From NCBI GenBank assembly GCA_947505105.1, contig CANNKG010000022.1, positions 1 through 41,972 of the forward strand: a stretch of DNA of 41,972 bases, written 5' to 3'. Below are positions 8,897 through 32,500 of this stretch, in pieces. The translations under genes and the position numbers were made by a program. Under the pieces are notes generated by a model that saw only the letters and a list, made by a program, of their open reading frames with translations, was not told where the DNA came from and searched no databases. Positions within the stretch are counted from its first letter, which is position 1. Every line of letters begins with the position of its first letter. This DNA comes from Methylococcaceae bacterium (GTDB taxonomy: Bacteria > Pseudomonadota > Gammaproteobacteria > Methylococcales > Methylomonadaceae).

Positions 8897-9730
8897 TTAA
8901 CGGTTCGTGGTTAAAGAATTTTCAGTATTTAATAGGATAACTTCGATTTCTTCGGTAATTTCTTCCTGTCGGTAAATCTGCGATTTACGACGCAAAGATA
9001 CTACGTGATCATCCAGGTGTTTGATCGCCGCTTCCAGATGCTGCAAGCGGCGATGATTCTCGGCCATTAATGACAGGTACAGAATCTCGTGCAGCACGGC
9101 AAATAAATAATGATCGATTAATTCAGCAAAAAAATCGGCAGGTTCAAGATTCAGCAGCGGCGGATGACCGCCGGTCTTTGTCGGCTGGCAATGCTCAAAC
9201 GGTGGCATGATTTGCCGAACGTTGATGTGATTTGGCAATGGATCATGATGAATCACCGTCAAGCTCAGGGTTTGATGCTCACTATGCTGTTGACCTAACA
9301 CATCAATGACCCGCGCCAGCACTTCCGGTATTTCTTCTGCGACATTAGCGCCTGGTATGGCTTCGATCAGTTGAAGCGAATGCCCTTCAAGTCGATGATG
9401 TAAGCGTGTGCCGAGCGCAATGATGCCCGTATAATTCTGTGCCGCCATCGTGGTGAGCAAACTTTCGTTAAAATCACCGCAAAAACCGCGTTCAGCACCG
9501 ACAATCAATGCAATGGTTCGGGTTTGAACAGAGGTTTTTGGAAAACCTGGATAAAACGCTAGATAATCGGTAGCGGTTTGTTCAATCAGGTCCACTGACT
9601 GACGTTGCGTATTTTGAAAACGAGTCAATTTATGAATTTCGATCAAGGCCAGATTCTTCATCGAGTTTAAGATGCTGCGTATCTCCTCCATTTGAGTAAT
9701 ACGCACTTGTAACTGGCGACTTTGACTCAT
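8897..9730 (-). CDS. atpG: N-type ATPase gamma subunit
   Basis: A protein of 277 residues with the F1 gamma layout: an N-terminal helix (QVRITQMEEIRSILNSMKNLALIEI), a central Rossmann-like part with the family block VGAERGFCGDFNE, and a C-terminal helix (ENHRRLQHLEAAIKHLDDHV) that forms the central shaft. It is the rotor axle linking the F1 head to the c-ring. It is the last gene of the cluster and its ATG overlaps the alpha stop codon (TAATG at 9730). The sequence resembles gamma subunits of the laterally transferred N-ATPases rather than the housekeeping enzyme. Confidence 0.88.
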   Translation of the reverse strand: MSQSRQLQVRITQMEEIRSILNSMKNLALIEIHKLTRFQNTQRQSVDLIEQTATDYLAFYPGFPKTSVQTRTIALIVGAERGFCGDFNESLLTTMAAQNYTGIIALGTRLHHRLEGHSLQLIEAIPGANVAEEIPEVLARVIDVLGQQHSEHQTLSLTVIHHDPLPNHINVRQIMPPFEHCQPTKTGGHPPLLNLEPADFFAELIDHYLFAVLHEILYLSLMAENHRRLQHLEAAIKHLDDHVVSLRRKSQIYRQEEITEEIEVILLNTENSLTTNR

Positions 9731-11268
9731 TAGATGGGTTCAGGATTTGCGCTCAGCCATGATGTTAACGCCTGTAGCCATTCATGTTGAGGACTGTCGA
9801 GGATTAACGGCGTCGATTGCAGCGCCTGTTCAATTCGACTTAGATAGTCGGGAAGTTCGGTTAATTCCAGCCGGTTGAACAGATCGGCATTAAATGCGCA
9901 TAACCAGGCGAGTTGAAACAGACTGTTCAGCGGCTGCAAGCGATCCTGTTTGAGTATTTCACGCAGCAAGCGACCGCGTTTGATGCGCAATTCCATAGAG
10001 GCTTCAAGACGCTGCCCAAAACGCGTAAAAGCTTCCAATTCAAGAAACTGCAAATAATCCAGCTTCATTTGACCGGCTTGCTTGCGAATGGCCGGATGCT
10101 GGGCCTTACCGCCAATACGTGATACGGATTTGGTGATGTCGATGGCCGGGCGAAATCCCGACACAAATAAATCATTATCGAGGTAAATCTGCCCATCAGT
10201 AATCGAAATCAGATTGGTCGGAATATACGCGGCGATTTCGCCTTGCTGAGTTTCTACAATCGGTAGGGCGGTCATACTGCCGCCACCATGTTCGGCATTT
10301 AAACAGGTGGAGCGCTCCAGCAAACGCGAATGTACAAAGAAAATATCGCCCGGATAAGCTTCACGGCCGGGCGGTCTGCGTAACAACAGTGACAATTCCC
10401 GATAGGTGCGCGCATGTGTTGAGAGATCGTCGTAGACAACCAGAGTATCCCGGCCTTGTCGCATCCAGTATTCAGCAAGGGCGCAGCCTGCAAACGGCGC
10501 GATATATTGCAATCCTGGTAGCGCATTAGCTTCCGCAACGACACAGATGGTGTAAGCCAAGGCACCCTGCTTTTTTAGAATTTCAATTGTATTGACGACT
10601 GCTGAGCGTTTCTGGCCGATCAACACATAAATGCAGAGTACATTCTGGTTTTTTTGATTGATCACGGTATCAAGCGCAATCGAACTTCTTCCGAGCCCCT
10701 CGTCACCAATAATCAATTGTCTTTGTCCACGACCAATCGGAATCAGCGTGTCGATTATTTTAATGCCGGTATATAGGGGCTTTACGACAAAATCACGTTC
10801 AATGATTGCCGGAGAGGCTTTTTCAAGAGTTTCGCGCGTTATCGATTGTGGGGGCGTTAGACCATCGAGTGGCTCGCCGAGCGGATCGATAATTCGTCCA
10901 ATAAACTCATCCCCGACTGGAATACTCAATGGATAATGCGATAAATGCACTGTAGTGCCGGCAGTCAGCAATTCCGTCTCGTAGAATAAAATAGCCCCAA
11001 TTCGGTCACGATTAAGATCGAAAACCATGCCGCGGCTACCGTCAGCGAAAATTAGAATATCGTCAATTGCAGCCGATGGAAGACCCTTAATCCAGCTGAT
11101 GCCATCGCCGATTGATACGACGGTACCCTGCTCGCTGATCTGCAATGACGTCTGATACCGATCCAGCCATGAAGCCTGTTGGGTGAGTAGACTTTCGGTA
11201 TAATTATTGGGATTGGGAGGCATCGACAAGCTCGGCAAAGCCAACAAGTTCATGCTGGAGATTCGCAT
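9730..11268 (-). CDS. atpA: N-type ATPase alpha subunit with altered P-loop
   Basis: A protein of up to 512 residues of the F1 alpha family. Recognisable blocks are the N-terminal beta-barrel ([15 protein letters not shown]), [30 protein letters not shown] and SVSRIGG with the arginine that reaches the catalytic site. The P-loop reads GDEGLGRSS (188-196): the usual lysine of GKT/S is arginine 194 (AGA). Nucleotide binding at the non-catalytic site may therefore be changed. The start is uncertain: ATG at 11268 overlaps atpF by 65 bases, ATG at 11253 by 50 and ATG at 11223 by 20; none has a clear ribosome site, so translation is probably coupled to atpF. No beta subunit gene is present in the cluster. 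Confidence 0.9.
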
Positions 11269-11959
11269 TTAACACCCAGGCGCCCAAATCAATGCGTAAT
11301 CCTGCGATGAGATCAGGCTCTATCGAAAAACTGAGCTTAATCGGATGCGCAACCAAAGCCTCTAGCTGATTTTGCAAACTTTTCTGTAGATTTTCAGTAA
11401 GTGGAAATGCGCTACTGATTTTAATCGGCAGTGCTTCTTTCGGTTTCATGTTTTTGAAGCTGGTGTGACACGCTTCCGGTAAACTCGACCATTGCTCAAG
11501 CAGTAATTGACACAAGTGAGCTTCAAGTTCCGGGGTAACGGTCGGTTTAAGCAATAAGGCCGCAAAGCGTGTCGCGTTCTGCAAAGCCTGACGTTCTAAC
11601 TGTTGCTCCCATTGGTGTTGTTGCAATGCTTGAGCTGCTTTTGCACTTTGGCGTGCTTGTTCCAGTTCATCCTGAAAACGCTGCATCTGCGTTGTTTTTT
11701 CGATACTTAGTTGCGCCTGCAACGCCTGCATTGCTGATTGCTTTTCTTGCTCCCAGCTTTTTAGGCGATTTTCATAGTCATGTCGTAAGGTTTCGGCTTG
11801 CAATTTGAGATTTTCGGCATCAGCAAGCGCTTGATTGATGAAATCTTTGCGTTTGGCAATCACAGCCAGCAGCGGCTTATAAAACAGGCGCTGCAAAATC
11901 CAAATTAAAATCAGAAAATTGATGATTTCAAGAACAAAGGTCGAAACATTGAATTCCAT
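11204..11959 (-). CDS. atpF: N-type ATPase b subunit with delta-like tail
   Basis: A protein of 251 residues, longer than the usual b subunit (about 156). Residues 7-30 form one membrane helix ([18 protein letters not shown]), residues about 35-145 a long charged helix of the peripheral stalk, and the C-terminal third (from about 150) ends in [19 protein letters not shown], a pattern like the end of the delta subunit. N-ATPases have no separate delta gene and carry this extended b subunit. It begins 17 bases after atpE and overlaps atpA. Confidence 0.85.
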
Positions 11960-11976
11960 AGCGAATTTAGCAACCG

Positions 11977-12246
11977 CTAACGATTGATAATGTATTCAAG
12001 CAATGGATTTTTGAATAGCACAATCAAGATAATCACCAAGCAGTAGATAGCCAGCGATTCAATCATCGCCAAACCAATAAAGAGGGTACGCATGATCGAA
12101 CGTTCCGATTCGGGTTGTCTTGAAATGGCTTCTAAGGCGCTGGCAATTGCTTTTCCCATGGCCAAGGCCGGTAGCATGACGCCGAGCGCAATTCCAATCA
12201 CCGCCGCAATACTCGAACCCAAAACAATCATTGAAATATCTGTCAT
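11977..12246 (-). CDS. atpE: N-type ATPase c subunit (ring proteolipid)
   Basis: A two-helix hairpin of 89 residues. Polar loop RQPE (43-46) joins the helices; the second helix has the ion-binding carboxylate Glu63 in the motif ESLAIY. Glu63, Ser64 and Tyr68 have the spacing E-S-x-x-x-Y seen in sodium-binding c subunits, but the first helix shows no glutamine or glutamate at the matching place (MLPALAMG), so the coupling ion, proton or sodium, cannot be decided. AGGA about 7 bases upstream of the ATG is the ribosome site; the gene starts 3 bases after atpB ends. Confidence 0.9.
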   Translation of the reverse strand: MTDISMIVLGSSIAAVIGIALGVMLPALAMGKAIASALEAISRQPESERSIMRTLFIGLAMIESLAIYCLVIILIVLFKNPLLEYIINR

Positions 12247-12249
12247 CGC

Positions 12250-12903
12250 TTATTCCTGTGCGTTAAGTTGTTGTGATTGCATCGCCCCGGCGAGATAAAT
12301 CAGCGCCAACATCCCAAAAATATAGGCTTGCACCAAAGCCTCAATAATATGTAACATCAGAATCGGAATCGGCGCAAGAAAACCCGCAACCAGCAAAATT
12401 AACATCGCGGCCATTTCCAGGCTCATGATATTGCCAAATAACCGAATTGCCAATGCCAGAGTGCGTGTAAATTCACTAATCAAATGAAAAGGCAATAAAA
12501 TCGGGCTGGGAGTTAAATAATGATGCAAATATTTTTTCAGACCATGGGTTTTGATACCGAACCAATGTACCGATAAAAACACTAGCACAGCTAGGGCAGA
12601 CGTGACTGAAATCTCTCGCGTTGGCGAATGTAGGCCTGGGATTAGACTCACCAAGTTTGCGATAATCAGAAAGATCCACAGTGAAGCAATAAACGGCAGA
12701 ATTTGGCGACCATGATCGGGAGCGACCGCTAAAATCGCTTCGTCGATAGCAGCAATAATGCCTTCAACACAGGTTTGTATCGCTCCTGGAAAGAGCTCCA
12801 AACGACGAGTAGTCAGCCATGCGAATATGGATAGCACAGCCATGATGCCCCATGTTGTTAGAATAGCTGAATCAATGACAATACCAGTTACGTCAATAAC
12901 CAT
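12250..12903 (-). CDS. atpB: N-type ATPase a subunit
   Basis: A multi-pass membrane protein of about 217 residues that forms the ion half-channels beside the c-ring. The essential arginine sits in the conserved block RTLALAIRLFGN; AIDEAI, HSPTREISVTSAL and the terminal EALVQAYIFGML also match the family. The start is placed at ATG 12903 with GGAGGAG 8 bases upstream; an adjacent TTG at 12906 would add one residue. This is the first gene of the cluster here, whereas complete N-ATPase operons have atpD, atpC, atpQ and atpR before it. The 205 bases upstream hold no ORF remnant that I can see. Confidence 0.9.
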   Translation of the reverse strand: MVIDVTGIVIDSAILTTWGIMAVLSIFAWLTTRRLELFPGAIQTCVEGIIAAIDEAILAVAPDHGRQILPFIASLWIFLIIANLVSLIPGLHSPTREISVTSALAVLVFLSVHWFGIKTHGLKKYLHHYLTPSPILLPFHLISEFTRTLALAIRLFGNIMSLEMAAMLILLVAGFLAPIPILMLHIIEALVQAYIFGMLALIYLAGAMQSQQLNAQE

Positions 12904-12949
12904 CAATATGGCTCCTCCCGAAACTTACTTGGAGTAAGCAGGATAATCA

Positions 12950-16458: not shown

Positions 16459-18054
16459 TTAATAAAATACTCTAAAACTTTGCTGAATTTGATGGAACTC
16501 ATACATATAAGGTTTAGCAACCTCATGATTTGCCGCGACGACGATCAAATCATGCGAGAACACTGAGGTGTTGTACCAGTTAAAACTGCCTTCGATCACA
16601 ATGTAGTCGTCGATGATGCAATATTTCGAGTGAATCGGTGAATACGGCACCGGATGATCGTCCATGCCATAAACAAGGCCGACACTGATCCCTGAATATT
16701 TTAAACGTTCGACTGCCGGTAATAAAGGTCGCTGCAATTCATCATGCATTGAGCGTTCGACCCCGATCCGTCCTTGGCGCGCCAGATGGCCATTAAACAG
16801 CATTTGCACATGGACGCCGCGTTCTTTAGCTTGAATCAAGGCATTAACTACGCTGTCATGATGTTCACCGAGTAAATCGCCGATCAGAAACAGGCACACT
16901 TTAATGCTGTGGCGCGCCCGATGAATTTCGGCCAGAATCGCTTGGTGCGGCAAATAAGGGTGTCCATTGCTCATGGTATGACGACCAAAGGTATAGAGCA
17001 GATTGAATGGACTAAACGGATCAATGCCGTATCGTTGAATCACGCCACCGCGTTGGCTTTGAAAAATATTGTCCAGGATTCGACAGACACCTTTGGAATG
17101 GAAGGTCATGCCGGACTCCCAGTTCGCCCACCAGCGATCAAAGGTAATATTGAAGGAGCCGAGAATGCAGTCCTCATCATTAAAGATGATGAATTTGGTG
17201 TGCATATCGGGTTCTACTTCGATCAGATGATGTTTTGGACTACAAAATACGCCCAATAACTCGACGCGAGAGCGTTTAAGTCGCGCATAATTGTGACTGT
17301 TGGTCAGGGTCATTTTACGCCAATCGACAATCACTTGCACCCATACGCCTTGATCTCTGGCCGTGATCAGGTGCGTGATGAAATCGGAGTCATCAATGCA
17401 GTCAACGCTGACTTTAATCGTGCAAAAACGCGCAGGATTTTCATGTTTGGAACGAATGACTTTGTCGATCAGATCATGAATGTAGCGTTTGGGGTGGAAC
17501 GGATGATGAACTTGACCTTTAGTGAATTTGGGTACTAAATTCAGTGATTCAAAATGGTGATTGTACCAATCGACATCACTTTGAAGTTCCCCGGAATGCA
17601 GTTCGTAAGTCCGATAATTATTCAGGGTCGCCCACTCGGAGTTAATATTGCGATGTTGGTGATGTTCGCTTTGTAATTGCTGCCAATCCATGAAAATATA
17701 ATCATTTTGCGATGGGATGGAGCGTTCACCAATGTGAACGATAAAGGAGAATTTGACGCAATTAATACGCCCAAAATTGGATGAAAACGGATGAATGAAA
17801 AAATCGCGGGTGCCGCGTTTATGAAAATTCCATTGAATATCATAAGGATCGGTATCGACGATAAAACTTTCACAAATATTATTGTCCCGATACACTTTTA
17901 AAATAACCTTAATATTGACTTGAGTGCCGTGATAAACGTCAAAATCAATTTTTCCCCAACGAACAAAGAACTTGTCTTTAAAGTCGTTTACGCGTTGAAA
18001 AGATCCGCCTAGGTGGCCGTAGGTAGGTAAGGCATAATGTTCAGCAAACTGCAT
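16459..18054 (-). CDS. phospholipase D-like protein with extra N-terminal domain
   Basis: A protein of 531 residues. Residues 1-130 form a beta-rich domain that I do not recognise (it could be another carbohydrate-binding-like module). Residues about 190-530 hold two PLD half-domains. The second has a full HKD motif: His475, Lys477, Asp482, Gly489-Ser490-Phe-Asn. The first reads HTKFIIFN (His285, Lys287) with Asn292 where Asp is expected, then GSFN at 299. PLD enzymes cleave or transfer phosphodiesters through a histidine intermediate. No signal peptide is visible. It is the last gene of the DUF4912-GH57-EEP cluster and starts 63 bases after the EEP gene; substrate unknown. Confidence 0.82.
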   Translation of the reverse strand: MQFAEHYALPTYGHLGGSFQRVNDFKDKFFVRWGKIDFDVYHGTQVNIKVILKVYRDNNICESFIVDTDPYDIQWNFHKRGTRDFFIHPFSSNFGRINCVKFSFIVHIGERSIPSQNDYIFMDWQQLQSEHHQHRNINSEWATLNNYRTYELHSGELQSDVDWYNHHFESLNLVPKFTKGQVHHPFHPKRYIHDLIDKVIRSKHENPARFCTIKVSVDCIDDSDFITHLITARDQGVWVQVIVDWRKMTLTNSHNYARLKRSRVELLGVFCSPKHHLIEVEPDMHTKFIIFNDEDCILGSFNITFDRWWANWESGMTFHSKGVCRILDNIFQSQRGGVIQRYGIDPFSPFNLLYTFGRHTMSNGHPYLPHQAILAEIHRARHSIKVCLFLIGDLLGEHHDSVVNALIQAKERGVHVQMLFNGHLARQGRIGVERSMHDELQRPLLPAVERLKYSGISVGLVYGMDDHPVPYSPIHSKYCIIDDYIVIEGSFNWYNTSVFSHDLIVVAANHEVAKPYMYEFHQIQQSFRVFY

Positions 18055-18117
18055 AATGGTAATCTCTAAGGTGTAGATGCCTGAGAAACAGGCTGGTAAA
18101 TCAAAGGTTAGCCGAGT

Positions 18118-19623
18118 TTATTTGGGTTCAAAGGTCATTAAATAGCCGCAATGATCCGAAACGCGTCCGTAATAGTCGTCGGTAAATAACACTTCACCGG
18201 CAGTCACTTTTAACGAACTATGCTTGTTCATGAAGATATAATCAATTCGATAATCATCCGCCAGATAATGGCTCCAGTATGGATCATTGACACGGAAGAT
18301 TTTTTCAAAAATTCCTTGCCGTTCAGCAGCTAAAAATTGATCTTCATATTCGTTTGATTGTACGACTAATTGATATCCGACTGAACCCGCCGCGATATTA
18401 AAATCTCCGCACAATAACGTTGCTTTTACGGCTCGGGAATGTGTGGTCGCTGCCCATTCACTGAGACGTTTAAATTGTCCTGCAAAACCGTCTTCCCACC
18501 AACTCAGGTGAGCAGAAAATACATTCAGCGCACCGATGCCGGGGACGTTAATTTGGGCATTGACGACTTTGCGTGAATGGATGCTATATATATCAGCCGA
18601 TTCCGAGACATAACGCGCGTCGTGGTTAGACATCGGATAACGGCTTAATATTGCAACGCCTTCGCGGTATTTGTCGAAGCCCATGTGCGACCAGTCGGTA
18701 TGCAGATTAAACGGTTTTGGCAAGCGGTCGTTAATGATGCGCGCCGAATTGGAATTCCAGTCGCCCTGACCGTTATTCCAAAGTTCTGCAACTTCCTGCA
18801 AACAGACAATATCCACCTGAAGATCATCAATCGCTTTGGCTATTTGAGAAAACTTATGATCTTGATGCTCTTCCTGGTAACAATGCAGATTTAAAATCAT
18901 AACCTTTAACGGTTTATGGCGTGCTGCATAGTTTTGCCCGTAGTTATTATCCCACCAGACTCGATTTTTGCTATAGCCGGCTATACAGTATTGCAGACGA
19001 AAGGCGTGCGTGACATTGATTCGCCCTTTCCACAGTTCGACCTGCCCTCGATTAAGGCCTTTGGACGGACTGAGTAGTTTTTTATTGTGGGCGCTTTTTC
19101 TAAAATGACAGGGCGTTTGATGGACATGCGACCAATTATCGGTCGTCCAATGAATAATGACTTTTTCTAGTTCCAGCGTTGGATCGACTGCGACGCTAAT
19201 CGACATAAATTTACGTTCGGAAACCAGTTTGTCACTAAAGCCGATATTTAATAATTGCAGATCATGCGCCAGACGTATGCCTGAATTGGCCGGGCTCAGG
19301 TAATTTAAGCCATTATGGTGATCTTGAAATTCTTTGCCTAATGCGCGATAACGCAGACTAAAGCTGATATTACCCGGTAATGCGGTTGCGGGTGTTTGTT
19401 GGATACGGGTTGTGACTTGCCAATATTCTTTGGACGAGTCGATGCGACTGTGAAACAAAGCAGGTAAAACATGCCAAATCCCATCAGCTCCTGACCATAG
19501 AACGTCCACCTGCTTGTCATAGCTGAGATTTTCGACCACCATAAAAAAGTTCAGCGTCTGTTGCTGAACTTCGTTGTCTCTCGTGACGATATTCTCGACA
19601 TAAAGTAGTTGAATCTTATCCAT
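18118..19623 (-). CDS. tandem CBM21-like modules plus endonuclease/exonuclease/phosphatase domain
   Basis: A protein of 501 residues. Two starch/glycogen-binding (CBM21-like) modules appear in tandem: about residues 6-108 (ENLSYDKQVDVLW to DHHNGLNY) and 122-232 (IIHWTTDNW to WWDNNYGQNY, the family's closing WDNN-NY block). Residues 240-500 are an EEP (DNase I/exonuclease III/phosphatase) domain with all metal and catalytic motifs: NLHCYQ, LQE (Glu277), GDFN (Asp407, Asn409), RIDYIF (Asp461) and SDH (Asp490, His491). It should be an active phosphohydrolase held on an alpha-glucan. No signal peptide is seen. AGAGGACG precedes the ATG. It follows the GH57 gene by 42 bases. Confidence 0.85.
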   Translation of the reverse strand: MDKIQLLYVENIVTRDNEVQQQTLNFFMVVENLSYDKQVDVLWSGADGIWHVLPALFHSRIDSSKEYWQVTTRIQQTPATALPGNISFSLRYRALGKEFQDHHNGLNYLSPANSGIRLAHDLQLLNIGFSDKLVSERKFMSISVAVDPTLELEKVIIHWTTDNWSHVHQTPCHFRKSAHNKKLLSPSKGLNRGQVELWKGRINVTHAFRLQYCIAGYSKNRVWWDNNYGQNYAARHKPLKVMILNLHCYQEEHQDHKFSQIAKAIDDLQVDIVCLQEVAELWNNGQGDWNSNSARIINDRLPKPFNLHTDWSHMGFDKYREGVAILSRYPMSNHDARYVSESADIYSIHSRKVVNAQINVPGIGALNVFSAHLSWWEDGFAGQFKRLSEWAATTHSRAVKATLLCGDFNIAAGSVGYQLVVQSNEYEDQFLAAERQGIFEKIFRVNDPYWSHYLADDYRIDYIFMNKHSSLKVTAGEVLFTDDYYGRVSDHCGYLMTFEPK

Positions 19624-19665
19624 CCATCGTCCTCTTTAAGTGATGCATTAGGGTAGCGTCTGAAT

Positions 19666-21261
19666 TTATTGGGCCACGTAATCTCGAAAATCTAATTCCG
19701 GAAAAATATTATCCATAATTTCCAAGGCGCTCAAATAACGTTCGTTAATATTGTTTTTACGAATACTATCATGTAAATAATTAAAGCGCGCCAAGTGATC
19801 GGTAATCCGTTTTCGGGCATATTCGATCGTGGTACCCGATTTCATGATAAATGGCCAATCGGAGGCTTGCGCCAATAACACTGAACGAGCCGCCTGATTC
19901 AGGGCACGCATTTGTAAATCGGTCAAGGTAAATTTAGCAAGATCCGTGCTCAATTGCTCCAATTGCAATTCGGCTTTATGCAGGAGCGGATAAATCCAGA
20001 CATTGGTCTCATTGATCCAGTAGCTCGAATAGCCCTGATCCCCCCAGGTCGAGGCAGAAGGAAGTGTCGATTGTTGCTCCGGATACTGTTGCAGGTAATC
20101 GCCGGGACTGACCAATTGCACGTCAGAATCCTCGCGCGCAGCAATTCTAATCAGTGCCTCCAACCAGTTAGGACCTTCAAACCACCAGTGCCCGAATAAT
20201 TCCGCATCAAAGGGTGTGACAATAATCGCTGGACGATCCATTTCGGTGCTTTGTTGATCGATTTTCTGACGGCATTTTTCAATAAAATCTTCGGCATGTG
20301 CTTGCGCTTTTAAGAGTGCCTGTCGAGGCTGATAAATATCTTTCGGCGTGTCGCCCCCGGTGACACGATAATACTTGATGCCGGTATTAATTCTGATGGT
20401 GTTATCGAGAATATAGGGCGCAATGTAATCCAGTGGCATATCAAAGCCGAGGTCGCGGTAGTATTCACGATAATCGAAATCGCCCGGATAACCCTCTTTA
20501 GCGCTCCACACCTGCTGCGACAAAGATAGTTCGCGTGCAAACGCTGCCACGCCATTTGTGCAGTCCAGGGGCGCATAAACACCATAACGGGGCGTTTCGT
20601 TCGCAAACAGCACACCATGAGCATCGACAAAAAAATACTCGATGCCCTGCTCTTTTAAAATAGCCTCCAAGCCTTGATAATAGCCACATTCGGGGAGCCA
20701 AAAACCCTTAGGTTTAAAACCTAAATTGGTATTAAAAACATCAATACCAGTTTTTATCTGATTGCGTACCGCAATTTCGCTGACATTCAATAACGGTAGA
20801 AAGCCATGAGTTGCGGCGCAGGTAATTAATTCGAGTCGGCCACTTGCCTCATGTTTACTGAAAGCCGCAAGTAAATCGCAGGAATACTGTTGTTGATAAA
20901 CTTGTAAGATCTTGCGAAAAAAGCGACGATACAGTCGAGCCAGTTTGGCGAATTGCGGCTGTTCCGCACGCGTTCTAATAACTTCTTTGTCCGCAAGTTC
21001 CAACAGATGCTGCAAATAATGCAGATAGCGGTTTTGAAGTAGTTCATCCCGCAACATCGTGACCAAGGGAGGAGACAGCGATAAGGTTAATCGATAGTCA
21101 ATACGATCCACAGTCAGTCGATCAAGCATGCTAATCAACGGAACATAACACTCGGTAATGGCCTCAAACAGCCAATTTTCCTCAAAAAAACTTTCATGTT
21201 CCGGATGGTGTACATAAGGAAGGTGGGCATGCAGAATAATACTCAGAAATCCTTTGGCCAT
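19666..21261 (-). CDS. GH57 glycoside hydrolase, glucan-branching type
   Basis: A protein of 531 residues, the usual length of GH57 1,4-alpha-glucan branching enzymes. Conserved regions: HAHLPY (11-16), the nucleophile block GFWLPECGY with Glu191, and the acid/base block TPFDAELFGHWWFEG with Asp352; the C-terminal helical domain ends near DWPFIMKSG. Such enzymes cut an alpha-1,4 chain and rejoin it through alpha-1,6, building branched glycogen-like polymer. It begins 5 bases after the DUF4912 gene, so co-translation is likely. The family also has amylase and alpha-galactosidase members; the length and the motifs favour branching activity. Confidence 0.9.
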   Translation of the reverse strand: MAKGFLSIILHAHLPYVHHPEHESFFEENWLFEAITECYVPLISMLDRLTVDRIDYRLTLSLSPPLVTMLRDELLQNRYLHYLQHLLELADKEVIRTRAEQPQFAKLARLYRRFFRKILQVYQQQYSCDLLAAFSKHEASGRLELITCAATHGFLPLLNVSEIAVRNQIKTGIDVFNTNLGFKPKGFWLPECGYYQGLEAILKEQGIEYFFVDAHGVLFANETPRYGVYAPLDCTNGVAAFARELSLSQQVWSAKEGYPGDFDYREYYRDLGFDMPLDYIAPYILDNTIRINTGIKYYRVTGGDTPKDIYQPRQALLKAQAHAEDFIEKCRQKIDQQSTEMDRPAIIVTPFDAELFGHWWFEGPNWLEALIRIAAREDSDVQLVSPGDYLQQYPEQQSTLPSASTWGDQGYSSYWINETNVWIYPLLHKAELQLEQLSTDLAKFTLTDLQMRALNQAARSVLLAQASDWPFIMKSGTTIEYARKRITDHLARFNYLHDSIRKNNINERYLSALEIMDNIFPELDFRDYVAQ

Positions 21262-21266
21262 AATGA

Positions 21267-21932
21267 TTAGTATTGATTTATATAATTTGGAAGCGGTTGA
21301 TGTGGACCCGCAATACTGACTTGATTAAACAACATGGCTTGCGGTTCCACCTGCGGCAATACCCAGGATTCGAAGTTTTGTGGGAAATCAGTTCTGGCGC
21401 GTGGAAGATGAATATGGTTCGAATAGGCAAGTTCTGCAAAAGCATTTTCGATACTGGGCTTACCGAGCGTCGCCGAATAACTCCCAATCGCCTTTTGGGT
21501 TGGTAAGCGAATCTTCTGCTGCATACGCGGTTGAGCCACCTGAATGTCAAACCAGTTTTGATGCGGTGTTTCAATGTCGATAAAATGCGCTTGATTATAA
21601 ATACGTAAGGTCAGGGGTTCAGGATCGGGTACTTTAAGATCCGTCTGGGCAATGTGTTGCTCAGGAATATGCCAATAGGCATATAGATGCTCAGGGTCTA
21701 CCGGTAAGATGACCAATTTTGGTTGATCCTCCGGGGTAATGCAGGGACTAAAATTACGGCTAATTTCTTCGCTAATGGCCAATAATTCGTTGGACTTAAA
21801 TTTAGACGGTAAGACTGGAGAAGCGATTGAAATTTCAGGGGCAAATTTCTGATTAATATCCTGACAAATTTCAAGCATTTCATCTGAGGAAATGCCAAGC
21901 GAGGAATTAAATCTTGAATGTAAAAAAGCCAT
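21267..21932 (-). CDS. DUF4912 domain protein
   Basis: A protein of 221 residues. The N-terminal part holds a twice-seen short segment (MLEICQDINQKFAPEIS and LLAISEEISRNFSPCIT), probably two copies of a small helix motif. From about residue 85 to 195 it matches DUF4912: LVILPVDPEHLYAYWHI, LRIYNQ, then FDIQV and SYSATLG. This Ig-like domain of unknown role is often coded next to GH57 and other alpha-glucan genes. AAGGA stands just before the ATG. It is the first gene of the four-gene cluster and probably serves as a partner or carbohydrate-binding helper. Confidence 0.82.
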   Translation of the reverse strand: MAFLHSRFNSSLGISSDEMLEICQDINQKFAPEISIASPVLPSKFKSNELLAISEEISRNFSPCITPEDQPKLVILPVDPEHLYAYWHIPEQHIAQTDLKVPDPEPLTLRIYNQAHFIDIETPHQNWFDIQVAQPRMQQKIRLPTQKAIGSYSATLGKPSIENAFAELAYSNHIHLPRARTDFPQNFESWVLPQVEPQAMLFNQVSIAGPHQPLPNYINQY

Positions 21933-23980: not shown

Positions 23981-24207
23981 TATATTTATTTCATTCTAAA
24001 ATGGTAATTCATAACATGTTTTTGACTGGGTGGCGCGATCAAAAATGTTGGAAAGGTATCGTTCGCGTATCATAACAGATTAACCCTGTCGAGACAGGAG
24101 GATTCAGTCGCTTGAGTTATTCTGTATGTTGTAAGCGTGCAAATTGATGGGGTTCCATTAAATCCGGATTAGATGACTATGATTTATTTATGTATTTTAG
24201 GCGCGCC
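23981..24207. other. divergent intergenic region with small hairpin
   Basis: No ORF is visible. The region separates divergent waaC and the REC-PAS gene, so it must hold both promoters. A compact hairpin CCTGTC-GA-GACAGG lies at 24085-24098, directly followed by AGGAGGA-like purines. I could not place a convincing sigma-70 or sigma-54 promoter by eye. Confidence 0.4.
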
Positions 24208-25053
24208 ATGAGTGAACACTCTCTCGCCGCTAGAACCTTATTATTGGTCGATGATGAACCTAATATTATTAATGCGCTAAAGCGGACTTTCCGCCGCGAG
24301 GGTTATATCATTCTGACCGCTAACAGTGGCCCAGAGGGACTCGAAATCCTTGCCAATCATGACGTGCATGTGATTCTTTCAGATCAGCGGATGCCCGAAA
24401 TGACCGGAGTGGAGTTTTTACGCAACGTGAAGGATTTATATCCCAAAACGATACGGATAGCGCTTTCGGGCTATACTGATCTTGAATCAATTACCAGCGC
24501 AATTAATGAAGGCGCTATTTATAAATTTCTGACTAAGCCCTGGGATGATGAGCAATTACGCGACAATGTCCGTAAATCGTTTGCTCATTATGAGATGGAA
24601 AGTGAAAATCTCCGTTTGACCGCCGACCTCCAGAAAGTAAATGAACAACTTTCTATATTGAATCAGAATCTAGAGCAGAAGGTGCTCGAAAAATCGCGCG
24701 AGATCAATTTAAATATGCATTTATTGCAAATTTCCCAGGAAATTCTGGAACATTTACCCGTTGGCGTGTTGGGCGTGGATGAGCAAGGCATGATTGCACT
24801 TTCCAATCGACGGGCGGATGCCTTGCTGCATAACGATAATGGCGAGAGTTTGCTCGGCTCATATATCATGCACTATCTCCCGGCGGAGTTACTCACTTGT
24901 GTTGATGATTCCGATGCCCATACATGTCAAAGCAGGTTTTTTGAATTACCAAATGGCGTTTCCTTACAGGTCACTATTAGCCCCATGGGAGTCAGCAGTC
25001 GTTCAAATGGCAAAATCATTGTGATTTCCACTCATCACTACCCTTTACCATGA
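24208..25053 (+). CDS. response regulator with PAS-like output
   Basis: A protein of 281 residues. Residues 8-125 are a REC domain with acidic pocket VDDEPN and phosphorylation site Asp59 (LSDQRMPEM), then SGYTDL and KPWDDEQL of the RpfG-type REC group. A coiled coil (about 130-170) leads to a PAS-like domain (about 178-265: LEHLPVGVLGVDEQGMIALSNR). No DNA-binding or enzymatic output domain is present. The start at 24208 is chosen because the in-frame ATG at 24190 has no ribosome site, though neither is strong. Its stop overlaps the HDOD start (ATGA). Confidence 0.87.
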   Translation: MSEHSLAARTLLLVDDEPNIINALKRTFRREGYIILTANSGPEGLEILANHDVHVILSDQRMPEMTGVEFLRNVKDLYPKTIRIALSGYTDLESITSAINEGAIYKFLTKPWDDEQLRDNVRKSFAHYEMESENLRLTADLQKVNEQLSILNQNLEQKVLEKSREINLNMHLLQISQEILEHLPVGVLGVDEQGMIALSNRRADALLHNDNGESLLGSYIMHYLPAELLTCVDDSDAHTCQSRFFELPNGVSLQVTISPMGVSSRSNGKIIVISTHHYPLP

Positions 25054-25892
25054 GCACAGTTGTCGAAACGTCCTTGGCAAATCACTTGTCGCGCTTGAAT
25101 GAGTTACCCTCATTATCAGCGCTATTGCTTGAAGCCTTGCAATTGCTGAATAGTGGTTACGATGCTCACGAACTCGCCGAAAAAATCGGGCAAGATCCTC
25201 CAATGACGGCTAAAATTTTACGTATTGCTAATTCGCCGTTTTACGGGCGGGCACGCCAAATTTCGTCATTAGCGGATGCCATTGTGTTACTGGGACGTAA
25301 TCAAATTGGTGACTTATTGTTGAGTGTTTGTTTTACAAATATCATTCCCAGCAGAATTGAAAATGTCGACTATTCGTTCTTCTGGAATCACTGCCTAGCC
25401 GTCGCCAATTGCACCCGTAAGCTGGGATTGGTTTGCGACATTGAATCGGATATGGCGTTTACGGCAGGACTATTGCACGACATTGGGCGATTAATCATGA
25501 TTACCCTCTATACCGAGCAATATCGAGCCCTATTTGACGATTCCGCATTAGCGCTTCACTACTTAGGAGAGCAGGAACGTGCGCTCTTGGGATTCGATCA
25601 CGCTCAAATCGGCGGACACGTTGCTAAAATGTGGAATTTTCCGCCCGAAATTCAGGAAGCCATCGAGCAGCATGAGCAACCTCCTTCGCCGAGAACGGCT
25701 ATTTCGCTTAGTGCGCTAATCTATACGGCTAATTTACTCGTCTATCAGGCGCAACAGGCTGAAAATGGCAACGAAGCGCTGCAGCAAGCGATTTTGGATG
25801 CGCTTGAATTGTTGGCGGTTTCGACTGAGCAGGCGTCATGCATTGCTCAGGATAGTCTGACTTATGCCGATCATATTACCGCTTTACTCTAG
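25050..25892 (+). CDS. HDOD domain signalling protein
   Basis: A protein of 280 residues filled by an HDOD domain: LPSLSALLLEALQLL, the helix DPPMTAKILRIANSPFYG that defines the family, and AFTAGLLHDIGRLIM. HDOD proteins are non-phosphodiesterase relatives of HD-GYP and act in signalling, motility and stress control, usually with a response regulator. It overlaps the REC-PAS gene by four bases and so is translationally coupled to it; the pair probably forms one signalling unit. Confidence 0.92.
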   Translation: MSTVVETSLANHLSRLNELPSLSALLLEALQLLNSGYDAHELAEKIGQDPPMTAKILRIANSPFYGRARQISSLADAIVLLGRNQIGDLLLSVCFTNIIPSRIENVDYSFFWNHCLAVANCTRKLGLVCDIESDMAFTAGLLHDIGRLIMITLYTEQYRALFDDSALALHYLGEQERALLGFDHAQIGGHVAKMWNFPPEIQEAIEQHEQPPSPRTAISLSALIYTANLLVYQAQQAENGNEALQQAILDALELLAVSTEQASCIAQDSLTYADHITALL

Positions 25893-25907
25893 TCTTTAGG
25901 AGCACGT

Positions 25908-27587
25908 ATGTGTAAAGAACCCGGAACGGCTACGGAAAATGCTGAATCAAAACCGATTGTCCTCCTGGTGGATGATAACCCGCTCAATATTGATGTGCTC
26001 GCCAATGCCTTAACAAACAAATATCAAATTAAGGTTGCGAACAATGGTCTACGGGCGCTGGAACTGGTGCAGGGTAAAACGCCTCCAGCCTTGGTATTGC
26101 TGGACATCATGATGCCCGATATGGATGGCTATGAGGTTTGTTTGCAGATAAAAGCCTTGCCGATACTCTCTCGAATCCCGATAATTTTTGTCAGCGCGAT
26201 GACCAGCACGGCTAACAAGGTCTATGGGTTTTCAATTGGCGCGGCTGACTATATCACCAAACCTTTTGACGTCGAAGAGGTCAAGGCCAGAGTGGCAATA
26301 CATTTGGAATTAAGTCGTTTACAACACCATTTTGAACAAGCGCTAAGTCAACGAACTTCCGCACTGAAAGAGAGCCGCGAGAAATACCGGATTCTCGCCG
26401 AATATTCACCGAATTGGGAGTATTGGCTTAATCAGCAAAGCGAATATCTCTATGTATCGCCCGCGTGCGTTGAAGTATCTGGTTATCAACCTGAGGAATT
26501 CATCACCAATGCCGGGTTGATGCGCAGTATTGTGCATCCGGATGATCTGACGCTATGGGATGCGCATGTATTGTCCGAGAGCAGTATTGTCAGCGCGATG
26601 GAACCTGCACTCAATCTACGCATCATCAATCAGCGCGGTGATGTACGCTGGATAGAGCACATCTGTAAACCGGTATTGGACGAGAATGGACAGTATTTAG
26701 GTTCAAGAGGCACTAATCGAGATATTACCGAGCGAAAATTAAGCAGGGCCGAATTGCAACTGGCGCGGCATCAGATTCAGGAAGTTCAAAATCAATTGGT
26801 CCAATCCGAAAAAATGGCCTCGATTGGTCAATTGGCGGCAGGGGTCGCACATGAAATCAATAATCCAATCGGTTATATCAGTTCAAATTTAGTCTCGCTT
26901 AAAGGCTATCTGGAAGATTTATTCGGACTGATATCGCTGTACGAAGCGAATGAAGCAAACGGTATCGATGCAGAACTTTTACAGCAAATTCAAAACTTCA
27001 AGCAGCAAATCGATCTGGAATTTTTGAAAACCGATATGCTGGATTTACTCAGTGAATCGCGTGAAGGAGCGATGCGCGTCAAAAAAATTGTGCATGATCT
27101 CAAAGATTTTTCTCATGTGGGCGGTGATGATGATTGGCAATGGGTGAATCTACATGTCGGGCTTGAAAGTACCTTAAATATCGTGCACAACGAAATCAAA
27201 TATAAAGCGCGAGTCGTAAAGGAGTTTGCGGATATTCCTGATATTAATTGTTTGCCACATCAATTGAATCAAGTGTTTATGAATTTGCTAGTCAATGCTG
27301 CCCATGCGATTGAAAAAGATGGCATTATTACCGTTCGTACCCGTTTGCAGGATTCAAAGGTATTAGTGGAAGTCAGTGATAATGGCAGCGGAATTTCACC
27401 TCAGCATTTGAATAAAATCTTCGACCCATTTTTTACGACCAAGCCCGTTGGAAAAGGAACCGGCTTGGGGCTTTCAGTATCGTATAACATCATTAAAAAA
27501 CATAATGGCGAAATTCAGGTTATCAGTAAACCGGGCGAAGGGACTACGTTTAGAATTCTATTACCCATCAATAATGCAGCGGCATAA
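25908..27587 (+). CDS. REC-PAS-histidine kinase
   Basis: A soluble protein of 559 residues. REC at about 17-135 with Asp66 ([11 protein letters not shown]); PAS at about 155-290 ([20 protein letters not shown], ending RDITERK); dimerisation helix with H-box [14 protein letters not shown] (His near 316); and HATPase with N-box [41 protein letters not shown]. An N-terminal receiver before the kinase marks it as an intermediate in a phosphorelay. TAGGAG 6 bases upstream of the ATG is a strong ribosome site. It lies 15 bases after the HDOD gene. Confidence 0.92.
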
Positions 27588-27593
27588 ATACCT

Positions 27594-28922
27594 ATGAACA
27601 GTGATGTACCGTCAAATGAAACCAGTCAACCCTCTATCATCTTATGTGTCGATGATGAGCTGAATATCCTGAAAGCATTATGGCGGCTATTTCATTCAAA
27701 AAAGTATAAAGTTCTCCTCGCGAGTTCGGGTGCTAAAGGCTTGGAACTACTGGCTAAGGAACCTATTGATCTGATTATTTCCGATATGCGCATGCCGGAA
27801 ATGGACGGTGCAGAATTTCTAAGTCGAGCATTTCAACAAAATCCCAATACAATTCGAATTATGTTGACCGGTTATGCTGATTTGCAATCGACCATAGTGG
27901 CGGTGAATAGCGGTCGGATTTTCAGTTACTGTACAAAACCCTGGGATGATGAAGAGTTAAAGATCCTAGTCAAAAACGCCTTAGAACAAAAGCGTTTGCG
28001 CGAGGATCATGAACGATTAACGCGCTTGATACATCAAAAAAATAAACAACTAAAAGCCCTGAATGAATCCCTCGAAGTCAAAGTGGAACAGCGAACTCAG
28101 GAGTTAAGCAATACGTTGCAAAAGCTCGATCATGCCAACAGCACCCTAAAAAAACAATACACGGAATCTGTCAAAGCTTTTTCGCGGATTATAGAAATGC
28201 GTCCAGGCATTAAGAGCGGTCATTCAAAATTTATTGCCGAACACGCTCAATATGTCGGGCAAAAAATGCTTTTAGGTGATGAAGCTATTCGAGACTTGGT
28301 TTATGCGGGTTTGCTTTTGCAGATCGGCAAAATGACCTTACCAGAGGAATTACTTACTAAACCTTTTCATAACTTAACGTCACAGCAAAAACTTAATTAT
28401 CAGCAACATGCAAATGAAGCTGTTTATTTGTTGAAAGGCTTGAGTCAATTAGAGGGAGCCGTCATTTTAATTCAACATCAATACGAACATTTCAATGGTT
28501 CAGGGACGCCGGGGCGATTGATCGCAAAAAAAATACCGCTTGGCTCGAGAATTTTGGCGGTTGTTCGGGACTATATCAGGTGTTTAGAAGGGTCGATGAC
28601 CGGACAGGTGATGCCTGCCTCAAAAGCCCGAGAGCATTTGCAGAATTTCTGCATCAAAATATACGACCCAGAGGTTGTCGAGGTATTTTTAGACTATTTG
28701 GATAAAAGCGCAGCGGTCAATAATCGACCGGTGATTGAGATTCCGTTGATGAAATTACGGGCCGGTATGGAGATTGAAGACATTTCCTATGAAGGTAGGA
28801 TCTATTTAAAAAATTGCATCATTGATGAGAACAAGCTAAAAAATGTGCTTAGCTTGTGGACCAAGGGCGGGGTTTCACCGTTGATTAGGATTCGTCTCGG
28901 GCAAGATGCTGTCGCGCCGTGA
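27594..28922 (+). CDS. response regulator with degenerate HD-GYP domain
   Basis: A protein of 442 residues. REC at about 14-130 with Asp64 (ISDMRMPEM) and KPWDDEEL; a coiled coil at 140-195; then an HD-GYP-like region (about 200-350) and a C-terminal domain of about 70 residues. The metal and signature residues are mostly lost: the HD pair of LLHDIGK is Leu-Gln (LLLQIGKM), HHE is QYE and the GYP block reads FNGSGTPGRL. Cyclic-di-GMP hydrolysis is unlikely; the domain may be a protein-binding or nucleotide-sensing relic. It starts 6 bases after the kinase gene. Confidence 0.85.
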   Translation: MNSDVPSNETSQPSIILCVDDELNILKALWRLFHSKKYKVLLASSGAKGLELLAKEPIDLIISDMRMPEMDGAEFLSRAFQQNPNTIRIMLTGYADLQSTIVAVNSGRIFSYCTKPWDDEELKILVKNALEQKRLREDHERLTRLIHQKNKQLKALNESLEVKVEQRTQELSNTLQKLDHANSTLKKQYTESVKAFSRIIEMRPGIKSGHSKFIAEHAQYVGQKMLLGDEAIRDLVYAGLLLQIGKMTLPEELLTKPFHNLTSQQKLNYQQHANEAVYLLKGLSQLEGAVILIQHQYEHFNGSGTPGRLIAKKIPLGSRILAVVRDYIRCLEGSMTGQVMPASKAREHLQNFCIKIYDPEVVEVFLDYLDKSAAVNNRPVIEIPLMKLRAGMEIEDISYEGRIYLKNCIIDENKLKNVLSLWTKGGVSPLIRIRLGQDAVAP

Positions 28923-29594: not shown

Positions 29595-32500
29595 TTATTC
29601 GGTTTCGGCATCAAGTTGTTCGGTTAAGATTTTCTCCAGAGTAATTAATGCATTCGGATAATCATAGTTATCAATTTGAGTGCCCAAAAGGGTGCAGAAT
29701 TCCTCATTGATCATTTGGGTCAGTTGTGGTGCTAATTTTCGCCAGGTTTCATTCGATTCAATATTGCCGGTGACCAATAATGCTTTGAGGCGCATGAACT
29801 GTAATTTGAGTTCGGCGATATCCAATATTTGAGTAGAGGCGGAACTGGTTTTTGGAAGAGGTTGTTGAAGATTAATTTCAGCGCACACTTCGGCCAGCAT
29901 GGTTTTGAGCTCAGCCAGAGGCTTTTCGAGTTCACTTGCAGCAACACCATTATGAATCAGATGTTCCAATTCAAAGGCCATTTGGCGTAATGGTTCAGCG
30001 CCGAGTAAGCCGGAGATCGATTTTAAAGAATGCGCCGCTCGTTCAGCGGTCACCCGATCTTCCTTCTCAAGCGCGTTTTGCAGTCGGTTTGCGTCATCAG
30101 CATGCAAGTTGACAAATTTGAGCAACATACGTTGATAAGTTTCGAGATTTCCGGACCAATAATCCAAGCCGATCGCCATATCAATGTAACGTGAGGATGA
30201 CCTTTCGGTCACGGTTGGGTAGCTTTCCGGTAATAAAGTCAATAATTCATGGTTGATATTGGCCGTGCTTTCGGGAAGCCAATGCGCTAAGGTGGTATAC
30301 AAAAGATTGGGATTAACTGGTTTTGCGACATAATCATTCATCCCGGCTTCCATACAAAGCTTTCGATCGTCATCGAAGGCATTCGCCGTCATCGCGAGGA
30401 TCGGTAGGAGCTTGCCGTTCGGTAATTGTCTAATCAGGCGAGTCGCTTCCAGGCCATCCATAATCGGCATCTGCATATCCATCAAGATCAAATCATAGCT
30501 ATGATTAGCCATTTTCTCGACGGCTTCCTCGCCATTACTGGCAATGTCCACGACTAAACCAATCCGCTTTAACAACTGAGCAGCCACTTCTTGATTAATC
30601 TCATTATCCTCGACTAACAAAACACATGCGCCCATACGAATGCTTGTATTATTATCCAGCGGCGTTACCGTTTGTTCATTAGAGCCACGTTTTAAATAGA
30701 CCTCAAACCAAAAAGTGCTGCCCTTACCTAGTACGCTATTGACACCGGCATCTCCGCCCATTAAGCGCGCTAAACGACGGCTGATGGCAAGGCCCAAGCC
30801 CGTCCCGCCGTATTTACGGGTTGTAGAGACTTCGGCTTGTTCAAAGGCTTCAAATAAGCGTTCTTGCTGATCGGTACTGATACCGATGCCGGTATCCTCG
30901 ACGTCGAAACGAATACTGACAAAATTGGAATTTTCAGAGATAAGTTTGGCGCGTAAGGTGACACTCCCTTGGGACGTAAATTTGATCGCATTGCTCACAT
31001 AGTTGATTAAAATTTGACCAAGTCTAAGTGGATCGCCCAGCAATGGTAAGTGTAACAACTGTGGGTCAATATCAATGACCGACTGCAACTGTTTCGCGGT
31101 AAAGCGTTCGGTCATCATATTGCACACATGGTCAAAGATTATTGGAATACTCAGCGGAATTTTTTCCAAGGTGAGTCGATCGACTTCGATTTTTGAGAGA
31201 TCAAGAATATCGTTGATGATGCCGAGTAAATGTTTCGCAGCGGTTGCGATTTTTTTTAACATTTCGGTTTGGGAAGGCGTACTCATTTCACTGTCTAGTA
31301 AATGCGTAAAGCCAATGATCGCATTCATCGGAGTTCGAATTTCGTGACTCATGTTAGCCAGAAAACTACTTTTGGCACGACTGGCCGATTCTGCCTCTAG
31401 TTTGGCCTGTTCAAGTTCCGCCGTTCGAGATCTGACCAATTGTTCCAAATTCGCGCGGTAGGCTTCGAGTTCTTTGGCGACGCGTTTCTTTTCGGTAATA
31501 TCCTCCATGATGGCGACATAATGGGTAATCAGTCCATTGGTTTGCCGTACTGAGGCAATCTGAGTCCAAATATATTGGGTTCGGCCATTTTTATGATGAT
31601 CAATGAGTTCGCCCGACCATACCTGACCTTCAGCTAGTTGTTGCCAGATCTGCATGAATTTGCTTTGATCGGTATAGAGCGATTTTAAAATCGATGGCGT
31701 TTTACCGACGATTTCTTCACGACTGAAGCCGGTCATCTCACAAAACTCCAGATTGGCATACTCAATTTCAATATCCAGGTTAGTAATAATGACGCTATTT
31801 GGGCTTTGCTCCACTGCCAGCCAGAGCTTTCGCAAGTCGGTATCGGCTTTTTTGCGTGTGGTAATATCTCGCCAGACCACATGGATAAATTTTCTATCGT
31901 GCTCGACGATTAGCGTTAGTAATACTTCGGCAAAAAAATGTTCGCCATCGGCGCGGATATGTTCCCATTCAAATTCATGGGCGCCTTGTTTAATGGCAAT
32001 ATCAAGCATTTCTTTGGCTTTGATCGAGGATAATTGACCATCGGGCTGAAATTCCGGAGAAATGTCTATGGGTGTTTTACCTTTAAGGGTCTCCAGAGAG
32101 TCCATGTGCATCAATTCGAGGGAGGCCCGATTTGCATCAATAAAATAGCCATCTTCGAGTAGCAGAATCGCTTCTTTAGTTTCTTCAAATAACTTGCGAA
32201 AACGTCGTTCACTTTCGCGCAATTGTTCTTCAGCATCATGACGTTCGGTGATATCGGTCCAGATGATTGAAAAATAACGATGCCCGTCTAATTGAATGAC
32301 TTTCAGGCTTTTATGCGCATATCTTAACGATCCGTCTTTACAGCGGAGTTGGGTATCGTACCGTGTTTCACCCGAGCGTAGCGCATGCTGCAGTTGTTGC
32401 GTATGGGTCCATGCATCGTCCCCATTGTGAACAGTCGACAATTTTAAGTCGGCAAACTCCTCTCGACTGTAACCGAGGCTTTCGCAAGCGGCATTGTTGA

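Follow-up and report, generated by a model that had tools for sequence, protein, structure and literature searches.

A run of four genes on the minus strand of a 41,972-nucleotide stretch of DNA from a Methylococcaceae bacterium (family Methylomonadaceae; contig CANNKG010000022.1, hereafter the window) encodes a protein in which two carbohydrate-binding modules of family CBM21 precede a catalytic domain of the EEP type. We propose, with a probability of about 45%, that this protein is a glycogen-bound alpha-glucan phosphatase of the MapP kind, with a predicted activity like that of laforin but on a different fold. The other three genes encode a DUF4912 protein, a GH57 glycogen branching enzyme and a protein with two phospholipase D (PLD) halves. 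Open reading frame coordinates and Pfam confirmed these four same-strand genes, their domain calls and the gaps of 5, 42 and 63 bases between them, all of which had been given in a preliminary description of this DNA (Table 1). That description also linked the four genes to glycogen as one set, and suggested that two phosphodiesterases might remove phosphate, phospholipid or nucleic acid from its granules, or guard them.

We compared 36 distinct EEP loci, comprising 13 from general genome contigs, 23 from relatives of the window genome and the window itself, minus one duplicate. The duplicate (L051, identical to L039) was left out of the locus counts but included among the 36 rows of the protein alignment, while the EEP gene of L056 was read from L014 and is absent from those rows. 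The general contigs were scanned by exact peptide patterns, which is no census, and the 13 relatives found there came from Methylobacter, Methylomonas, other Methylococcaceae and Bacterium UASB270, a Candidatus Vecturithrix of the phylum KSB3.

The catalytic domain is assigned to the EEP superfamily by its Pfam match and by invariant residues: N245, E277, H372, D407, N409, D461, D490 and H491, which we take to be the EEP metal-binding and catalytic positions, were kept in all 36 rows. When a profile of 14 EEP proteins was compared with the PDB, the sole EEP chain below E 0.005 was 3TEB (E 1e-28), a Leptotrichia EEP protein with no stated function, and the next EEP chain stood at 0.007. Enterococcus faecalis MapP also matched 3TEB first (E 8e-30), with nothing else below 0.04. 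BLASTP scores were 76-98 bits between the window's EEP domain and six MapP-type proteins versus 29 bits to another EEP protein of the same genome, judged by eye to be ExoIII-like. Moreover, H247, H313, E321, R351 and W375 were identical in 35 of 35 EEP proteins, in all six standalone paralogues and in all six MapP-type proteins, which had been selected for their similarity to the window protein, and they differed in the ExoIII-like protein, the one outgroup of this comparison. By alignment, 3TEB shares the first four of these residues but not W375. On these profile and residue comparisons, we place the domain in a MapP-like subfamily, closer to MapP than to other EEP groups. Within this subfamily a single member is known to be characterised, and it acts as a phosphomonoesterase on an alpha-1,4-glucoside. 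Removal of phosphate from a glucan, as suggested in the preliminary description, is still the best reading. A role of the EEP protein as a phosphodiesterase is not supported; the nearest characterised relative found here, MapP, is a sugar phosphomonoesterase. The standalone EEP paralogues, which belong to the same subfamily and are without CBM21, were seen at G000:C135:11260-12084 (L002, L076) and at L077-L081.

Relatives of the EEP gene are also present on plasmids. A tblastn search returned 60 plasmid records, from Enterococcus, Lactococcus, Leclercia, Enterobacter, Cetobacterium, Priestia and Niallia, and one of these relatives is annotated as a maltose 6'-phosphate phosphatase. Six of the records, from six organisms, were examined, and in each a phosphotransferase system (PTS) IIBC gene lay directly before the EEP relative, with GH65, alpha-glucosidase or beta-phosphoglucomutase (pgmB) genes nearby. 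This order fits the malT-mapP arrangement of E. faecalis. One article describes that arrangement, citing Mokhtari et al. 2013, and has MapP acting on a disaccharide phosphate (PMC3737437). The MapP-annotated gene differs from the window gene in several ways. It encodes 274 amino acids, which leaves no room for CBM21, it is about 30% identical, and its annotated neighbours include PTS IIBC, GH65 and pgmB genes but none for a PLD protein. No PLD relative was found on plasmids at E 1e-10. Conversely, genes for PTS, maltose phosphorylase or alpha-glucosidase were not seen among the window's scanned neighbours; a genome-wide PTS search was not made.

The two modules in front of the EEP domain bear out the link to glycogen drawn in the preliminary description. 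The second is above the Pfam cut-off, and its profile matched the glycogen-targeting protein phosphatase 1 (PP1) subunits R3C and R3B in the PDB at E 2e-7 to 5e-7. The first, taken alone, is under the cut-off (23.5 versus 28.9 bits); its profile matched the CBM21 of Rhizopus glucoamylase at E 2.6e-6, as well as PP1 subunit R3A, and hhalign aligned the first module with the second at a probability of 96. The ligand residues of the Rhizopus module include W47, Y32 and F58 (PMC3398936), and their equivalents are kept in most sequences here, with W50 present in 34 of the 36 rows, residue 35 aromatic in 33 and residue 57 aromatic in 35. In the window's own first module the WDNN loop is replaced by QDHH, at a place where 34 of the 36 rows have W. 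By profile and by the kept ligand-binding aromatics, we therefore class both modules as CBM21, and predict that they bind starch.

The neighbourhoods of these genes show that the four do not make up a single fixed set, as had been supposed, but rather two conserved pairs, DUF4912-GH57 and EEP-PLD. DUF4912 and GH57 were adjacent, on the same contig and strand, in all 26 genomes that matched both (related genomes, judged by eye). Two further genomes have GH57: in G009 the gene lies at a contig end, and in G018 a DUF4912-type open reading frame was recognised by clustering only (L067). The PLD gene was found downstream of EEP, on the same strand and 15-717 bases away, in 30 of 32 assessable loci; L039, L053, L055 and L065 end too close downstream for PLD to be judged. 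The two loci without a downstream PLD gene are L042 and L046, and the L046 genome has a PLD gene at the start of a contig. Between the pairs the association is looser, with the EEP gene not behind DUF4912-GH57 in 17 of the 36 loci.

At two thirds of the loci, the EEP gene has glycogen genes as neighbours. GH57 was upstream of it in 19 of 36 (18 within 458 bases and L057 at 2.3 kb), each time preceded by DUF4912 (17 by tblastn, L046 and L067 by clustering), while glgB-glgA was upstream in 5 of 36, with 61-184 bases to glgA. The EEP gene therefore stands directly downstream of GH57 or GlgA in 23 loci, with one more at 2.3 kb behind GH57, which again upholds the proposed glycogen link. Genes for GlgB, GlgA, GlgC, MalQ and GH57 are near EEP in many loci. 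Two glycogen synthase genes per genome were seen in G033 (C58, L047) and G006, and in G033 they flank the DUF4912-GH57-EEP-PLD run on either side, with glgB and glgC on both sides.

Co-occurrence was scored in 61 genomes, 37 of them from the window's family and 24 from other families of the order. Full-length EEP was present in 24 genomes, every one in the window's family, with one more weak partial match in G041. PLD was present in 22 genomes, each of which has EEP, and it was never found without EEP (0 of 61); in the two EEP genomes without PLD (G003 and G034), the EEP gene lies within about 210 bases of the contig end on the PLD side. Among the 37 family genomes, EEP and GH57 were both present in 22, EEP only in 2, GH57 only in 1 and neither in 12 (Fisher test, p 6e-7, with kinship ignored), and GlgA was present in all 24 EEP genomes and in 10 of the 13 that lack EEP in the family. 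The recurrence of these families together in other genomes, on which the preliminary description would have stood or fallen, was thus observed within one bacterial family.

Farther afield, Methylococcaceae-type genomes and Bacterium UASB270 were the only places where the pair was met. The PLD protein occurred in 1 of 299 Pseudomonadota genomes drawn, the window's own, and, among four genomes of UASB270's phylum, in UASB270's own only; CBM21 was absent from the 397 other Pseudomonadota genomes that were sampled (1 of 398 with the window's own). These Pseudomonadota draws included few or no other members of the window's family. Two named genomes were checked for further CBM21 copies, those of UASB270 and Methylobacter tundripaludum SV96, and in both the only two copies are at this locus. 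The UASB270 copy of EEP-PLD (L044, 8001-11163) is 51% and 69% identical to the window's proteins, and sits beside radical SAM and TPM-domain genes. Its presence in so distant a lineage possibly reflects horizontal transfer (grouping support 82, on a long branch).

The partner of the EEP protein is assigned to the phospholipase D superfamily by its two HKD motifs, and its sequence varies less than that of the EEP protein (69-82% versus 51-62% identity to the window). All 29 PLD proteins compared keep H, K and GSFN in each motif; the D of the first motif is replaced by N in 28 of them and by G in the other, and the second motif is complete. Because the structural model is of low confidence, fold matches were used for the PLD halves only, and these are closest to Nuc, NucT and Zucchini (Z 13-14), with polyphosphate kinase 1 (PPK1) at a Z of about 9. 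Like these nucleases, the window protein has PLD halves with HKD motifs; unlike them, it carries two halves in one chain, an N-terminal beta-rich domain and N for D in the first motif. PDB sequence matches led to mitochondrial cardiolipin hydrolase/Zucchini (E 2e-4). The top NCBIfam match was DISARM DrmC, at 43 bits versus a cut-off of 133, and the best NucT model scored 27 bits versus a cut-off of 297, far short of the score asked of NucT/Nuc nucleases. The first half is also weakly like PP_kinase_C (E 7e-5, under the Pfam cut-off), and Pfam finds no other PPK domain in the protein. For the N-terminal domain, Pfam searches up to E 10 gave nothing in the proteins of the window and L044, and in L066 a helix-turn-helix match no better than chance. 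CBM21 was considered for this domain and rejected, with an hhalign probability under 1.

Taken together, these observations suggest a system whose core would be the two-gene EEP-PLD module, joined in the window to the DUF4912-GH57 branching-enzyme pair. The EEP protein would be a cytosolic phosphatase held on glycogen by its two CBM21 modules, a location that fits the lack of a recognisable signal peptide at the start of the EEP and PLD sequences (by eye). It may hydrolyse phosphate esters on glucosyl residues of glycogen, or of maltodextrins released from it, so that phosphate-free chains would stay good substrates for branching enzymes and for degradation. Branching enzymes of various origin, a bacterial one among them, have a reduced affinity where the glucan carries phosphate (PMC13011383), and a phosphatase gene behind a branching-enzyme or glycogen-synthase gene fits this effect. 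The PLD protein might target this polymer too; its most likely role would be to open a phosphodiester, after which EEP would strip the remaining monoester. That PLD opens a phosphodiester on glucan is a guess from its fold and its pairing, and we regard it as doubtful. The substrate, the granule location and the order of the two steps are ones that we infer. The wider picture, in which bacteria esterify glycogen with phosphate, perhaps as a diester, and remove it in two steps by granule-bound PLD and then CBM21-EEP, seems unlikely. Methylobacter tundripaludum SV96, which carries the locus (L032), stores glycogen (PMC10030640).

Several known proteins combine similar parts in other ways. Laforin, SEX4 and LSF2, from animals and plants, carry starch-binding modules. 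Their likeness to the window protein is in the proposed job, that of a phosphatase tethered to alpha-glucan, with a carbohydrate-binding module on the same chain. The PP1 glycogen-targeting subunits PPP1R3B and PPP1R3C share CBM21, which in their case brings a phosphatase to glycogen; however, they recruit a separate protein phosphatase, whereas in the window protein the catalytic domain is fused. GPCPD1/GDE5, which consists of CBM20 and a GDPD phosphodiesterase, likewise joins a starch-binding module to an enzyme that hydrolyses phosphoesters, but with another CBM family and another catalytic fold. The mannosyl-6-phosphatase Bt3783 (PDB 4c1r) has, by its entry title, an EEP fold that works on a sugar 6-phosphate, and it aligns with a Z of 23.9 and a root-mean-square deviation of 3.3 over 237 positions. 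Nevertheless, it is absent from the sequence-profile matches up to E 10, and it probably belongs to another EEP subfamily. As for laforin, SEX4 and LSF2, they are dual-specificity phosphatases, as is every known glucan phosphatase according to PMC13011383, in contrast to the EEP and CBM21 of the window protein.

A number of observations weigh against a glucan phosphatase. The window's EEP domain is only 27-30% identical to MapP-type proteins, and its substrate may therefore have changed. Structure does not single out an EEP subfamily, as TDP2, neutral sphingomyelinase and nocturnin reach Z 21-24 compared with 26 for 3TEB. At two of the six loci examined (L079 and L078), the standalone paralogue adjoins genes for ethanolamine ammonia-lyase, and no glycogen genes were among the ten neighbours scanned at those loci. 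This context hints at a phosphoethanolamine-type substrate, and the MapP-like subfamily may thus extend beyond alpha-glucosides to other phosphoesters. At the level of the locus, 12 of the 36 EEP loci gave no match to eight glycogen-gene queries in the available flank, of which the upstream part measured 2.1-8.7 kb and the downstream part was short in some, and DUF4912-GH57 occurred without EEP in 6 of the 61 genomes, among them 5 of the 24 from outside the family. The PLD model is poor (mean pLDDT 55, from a shallow alignment), and its best matches are nucleases. Finally, phosphate on the glycogen of organisms that lack laforin, bacteria included, is called speculation in PMC13011383, and no writer of glycogen phosphate was found here, where no search for one was made.

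We weighed these points against four other explanations. The EEP protein might serve soluble glycogen metabolism, as a phosphatase of maltodextrin 6-phosphate or of nucleotide sugars, with CBM21 just concentrating the enzyme near the granule and the polymer itself not being its substrate. The disaccharide phosphate on which MapP works (PMC3737437) would suit such a role, as would the glycogen-metabolism genes that lie near EEP in many loci. However, two tandem CBM21 modules with kept ligand residues suggest a polymer-bound substrate, and the lack of PTS genes among the neighbours scanned also speaks against this role, which we think it unlikely that the protein has.

It is also conceivable, as the preliminary description offered, that EEP and PLD form a glycogen-binding pair of nucleases or lipid phosphodiesterases that clears RNA, DNA or phospholipid trapped on glycogen granules. 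EEP folds include nucleases and sphingomyelinases, and the nearest likeness of the PLD halves is to Nuc, NucT and Zucchini, with the cardiolipin hydrolase/Zucchini sequence match and the weak DrmC match pointing the same way. Given that the EEP domain falls in the MapP-like subfamily, and that the PLD model is of low confidence, we find this explanation improbable.

A third possibility is that EEP-PLD is unrelated to glycogen, and that it came to lie in glycogen loci by an accident of inheritance within one family. One third of the loci (12 of 36) lie elsewhere, the UASB270 copy included. Moreover, on the EEP protein tree the three kinds of place need 7 changes, of which the starred branches force only three or more for the GH57 place and one or more for the GlgA place. 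Yet there are two different glycogen arrangements and two CBM21 modules to be explained, and of the nine family genomes in which the EEP gene is not placed near glycogen genes, seven carry a GH57 gene elsewhere. An accident of this kind therefore appears distinctly improbable. A writer-and-eraser pair, in which the PLD-fold protein puts phosphate on glycogen and EEP removes it, would draw on the phosphate transfer carried out by polyphosphate kinase 1 with the same fold, on the PPK likenesses given above and on the strict EEP-PLD pairing, but those matches are weak, may reflect a shared fold only and come with no other PPK domain, which makes it very improbable. We retain the glycogen-bound phosphatase as our preferred reading of the EEP protein.

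Table 1. Features of the four-gene run in the window
Feature	Position	Strand	Remarks
DUF4912 protein, 221 aa	21267..21932	-	First gene transcribed; Pfam DUF4912 E 4e-14; paired with GH57
GH57 glycogen branching enzyme, 531 aa	19666..21261	-	Glyco_hydro_57 (PF03065) E 4e-37 and BE_C (PF09210) E 1e-32
CBM21-CBM21-EEP protein, 501 aa	18118..19623	-	Exo_endo_phos (PF03372) E 2e-17; CBM_21 E 4e-14, two stretches
Double-PLD protein, 531 aa	16459..18054	-	PLDc_2 E 7e-36, two stretches; partner of the EEP protein
First CBM21, residues about 9-110	19294..19599	-	WDNN loop is QDHH in this species; other ligand positions kept
Second CBM21, residues 153-233	18925..19167	-	Best Pfam stretch; WDNN loop intact
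EEP catalytic domain, residues 239-501	18118..18909	-	Assigned to MapP-like subfamily; catalytic positions kept
N-terminal beta-rich domain of PLD protein, residues 1-150	17605..18054	-	Pfam gives no match in the window protein
First HKD motif region, residues 285-302	17149..17202	-	H, K and GSFN kept; usual D is N
Second HKD motif region, residues 475-492	16579..16632	-	HKD complete

Within the run, the GH57 enzyme is classed as a branching enzyme because it carries both the GH57 catalytic domain and BE_C in Pfam; it scores under the cut-offs of two lineage-specific NCBIfam models. Promoter-like sites (15 versus 14.6 in shuffles) and terminator-like sites (5 versus 6.1) were not in excess, so the operon call comes from spacing and strand alone. 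The arrangement recurs in relatives and is therefore more than chance. The nearest flanking genes are 268 and 305 bases off. Upstream are amidase-like and heptosyltransferase-type genes, and downstream are genes for a heavy-metal-type P-ATPase and a short-chain dehydrogenase (Pfam); these outer neighbours look unrelated to the run.

Elsewhere in the window we observed a GH63-like/MGH1-like glycoside hydrolase of 892 amino acids (193-2871, plus strand), which is a further possible alpha-glucoside enzyme. Genes of ATP synthase type lie at 8897-12906 on the minus strand, with an alpha/beta-type subunit and a b-subunit protein with an OSCP/delta match, in a layout that resembles N-type (sodium) ATPase operons. 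A large hybrid histidine kinase of 1379 amino acids, with several PAS domains, a receiver and an Hpt domain, is encoded at 29595-33734 (minus strand), and response-regulator-like open reading frames were seen by eye near it, at 24190-28922.

In the open full-text literature that we searched, we found no description of the CBM21-EEP architecture, nothing that combines CBM21 with exonuclease, phosphatase and bacteria, and nothing that joins phospholipase D, glycogen and a methanotroph. DUF4912 was not found there together with glycogen, and alone it led only to work on cotton callus, by title. Judged by titles or abstract openings, no such protein was among the matches listed for CBM21 and bacterial glycogen, or for glycogen granules, phospholipase D, bacteria and starch-binding, and the term CBM21 is absent from the searched portion of an alpha-glucan review (PMC11046441).

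If bacteria do clear phosphate from their glycogen in the two-step manner described above, the EEP protein would be a bacterial equivalent of laforin, and the first glucan phosphatase that is not a dual-specificity phosphatase. Phosphate on glycogen, and its removal, are of importance in Lafora disease and in starch turnover. The CBM21-EEP architecture and its strictly paired PLD partner now have a biochemical lead, and, since a MapP-type domain with two CBM21 modules lies beside glgA or a branching-enzyme gene in culturable methanotrophs, both questions, whether glycogen carries phosphate in organisms that lack laforin and whether glucan phosphatases are confined to the dual-specificity family, are directly testable in these organisms.

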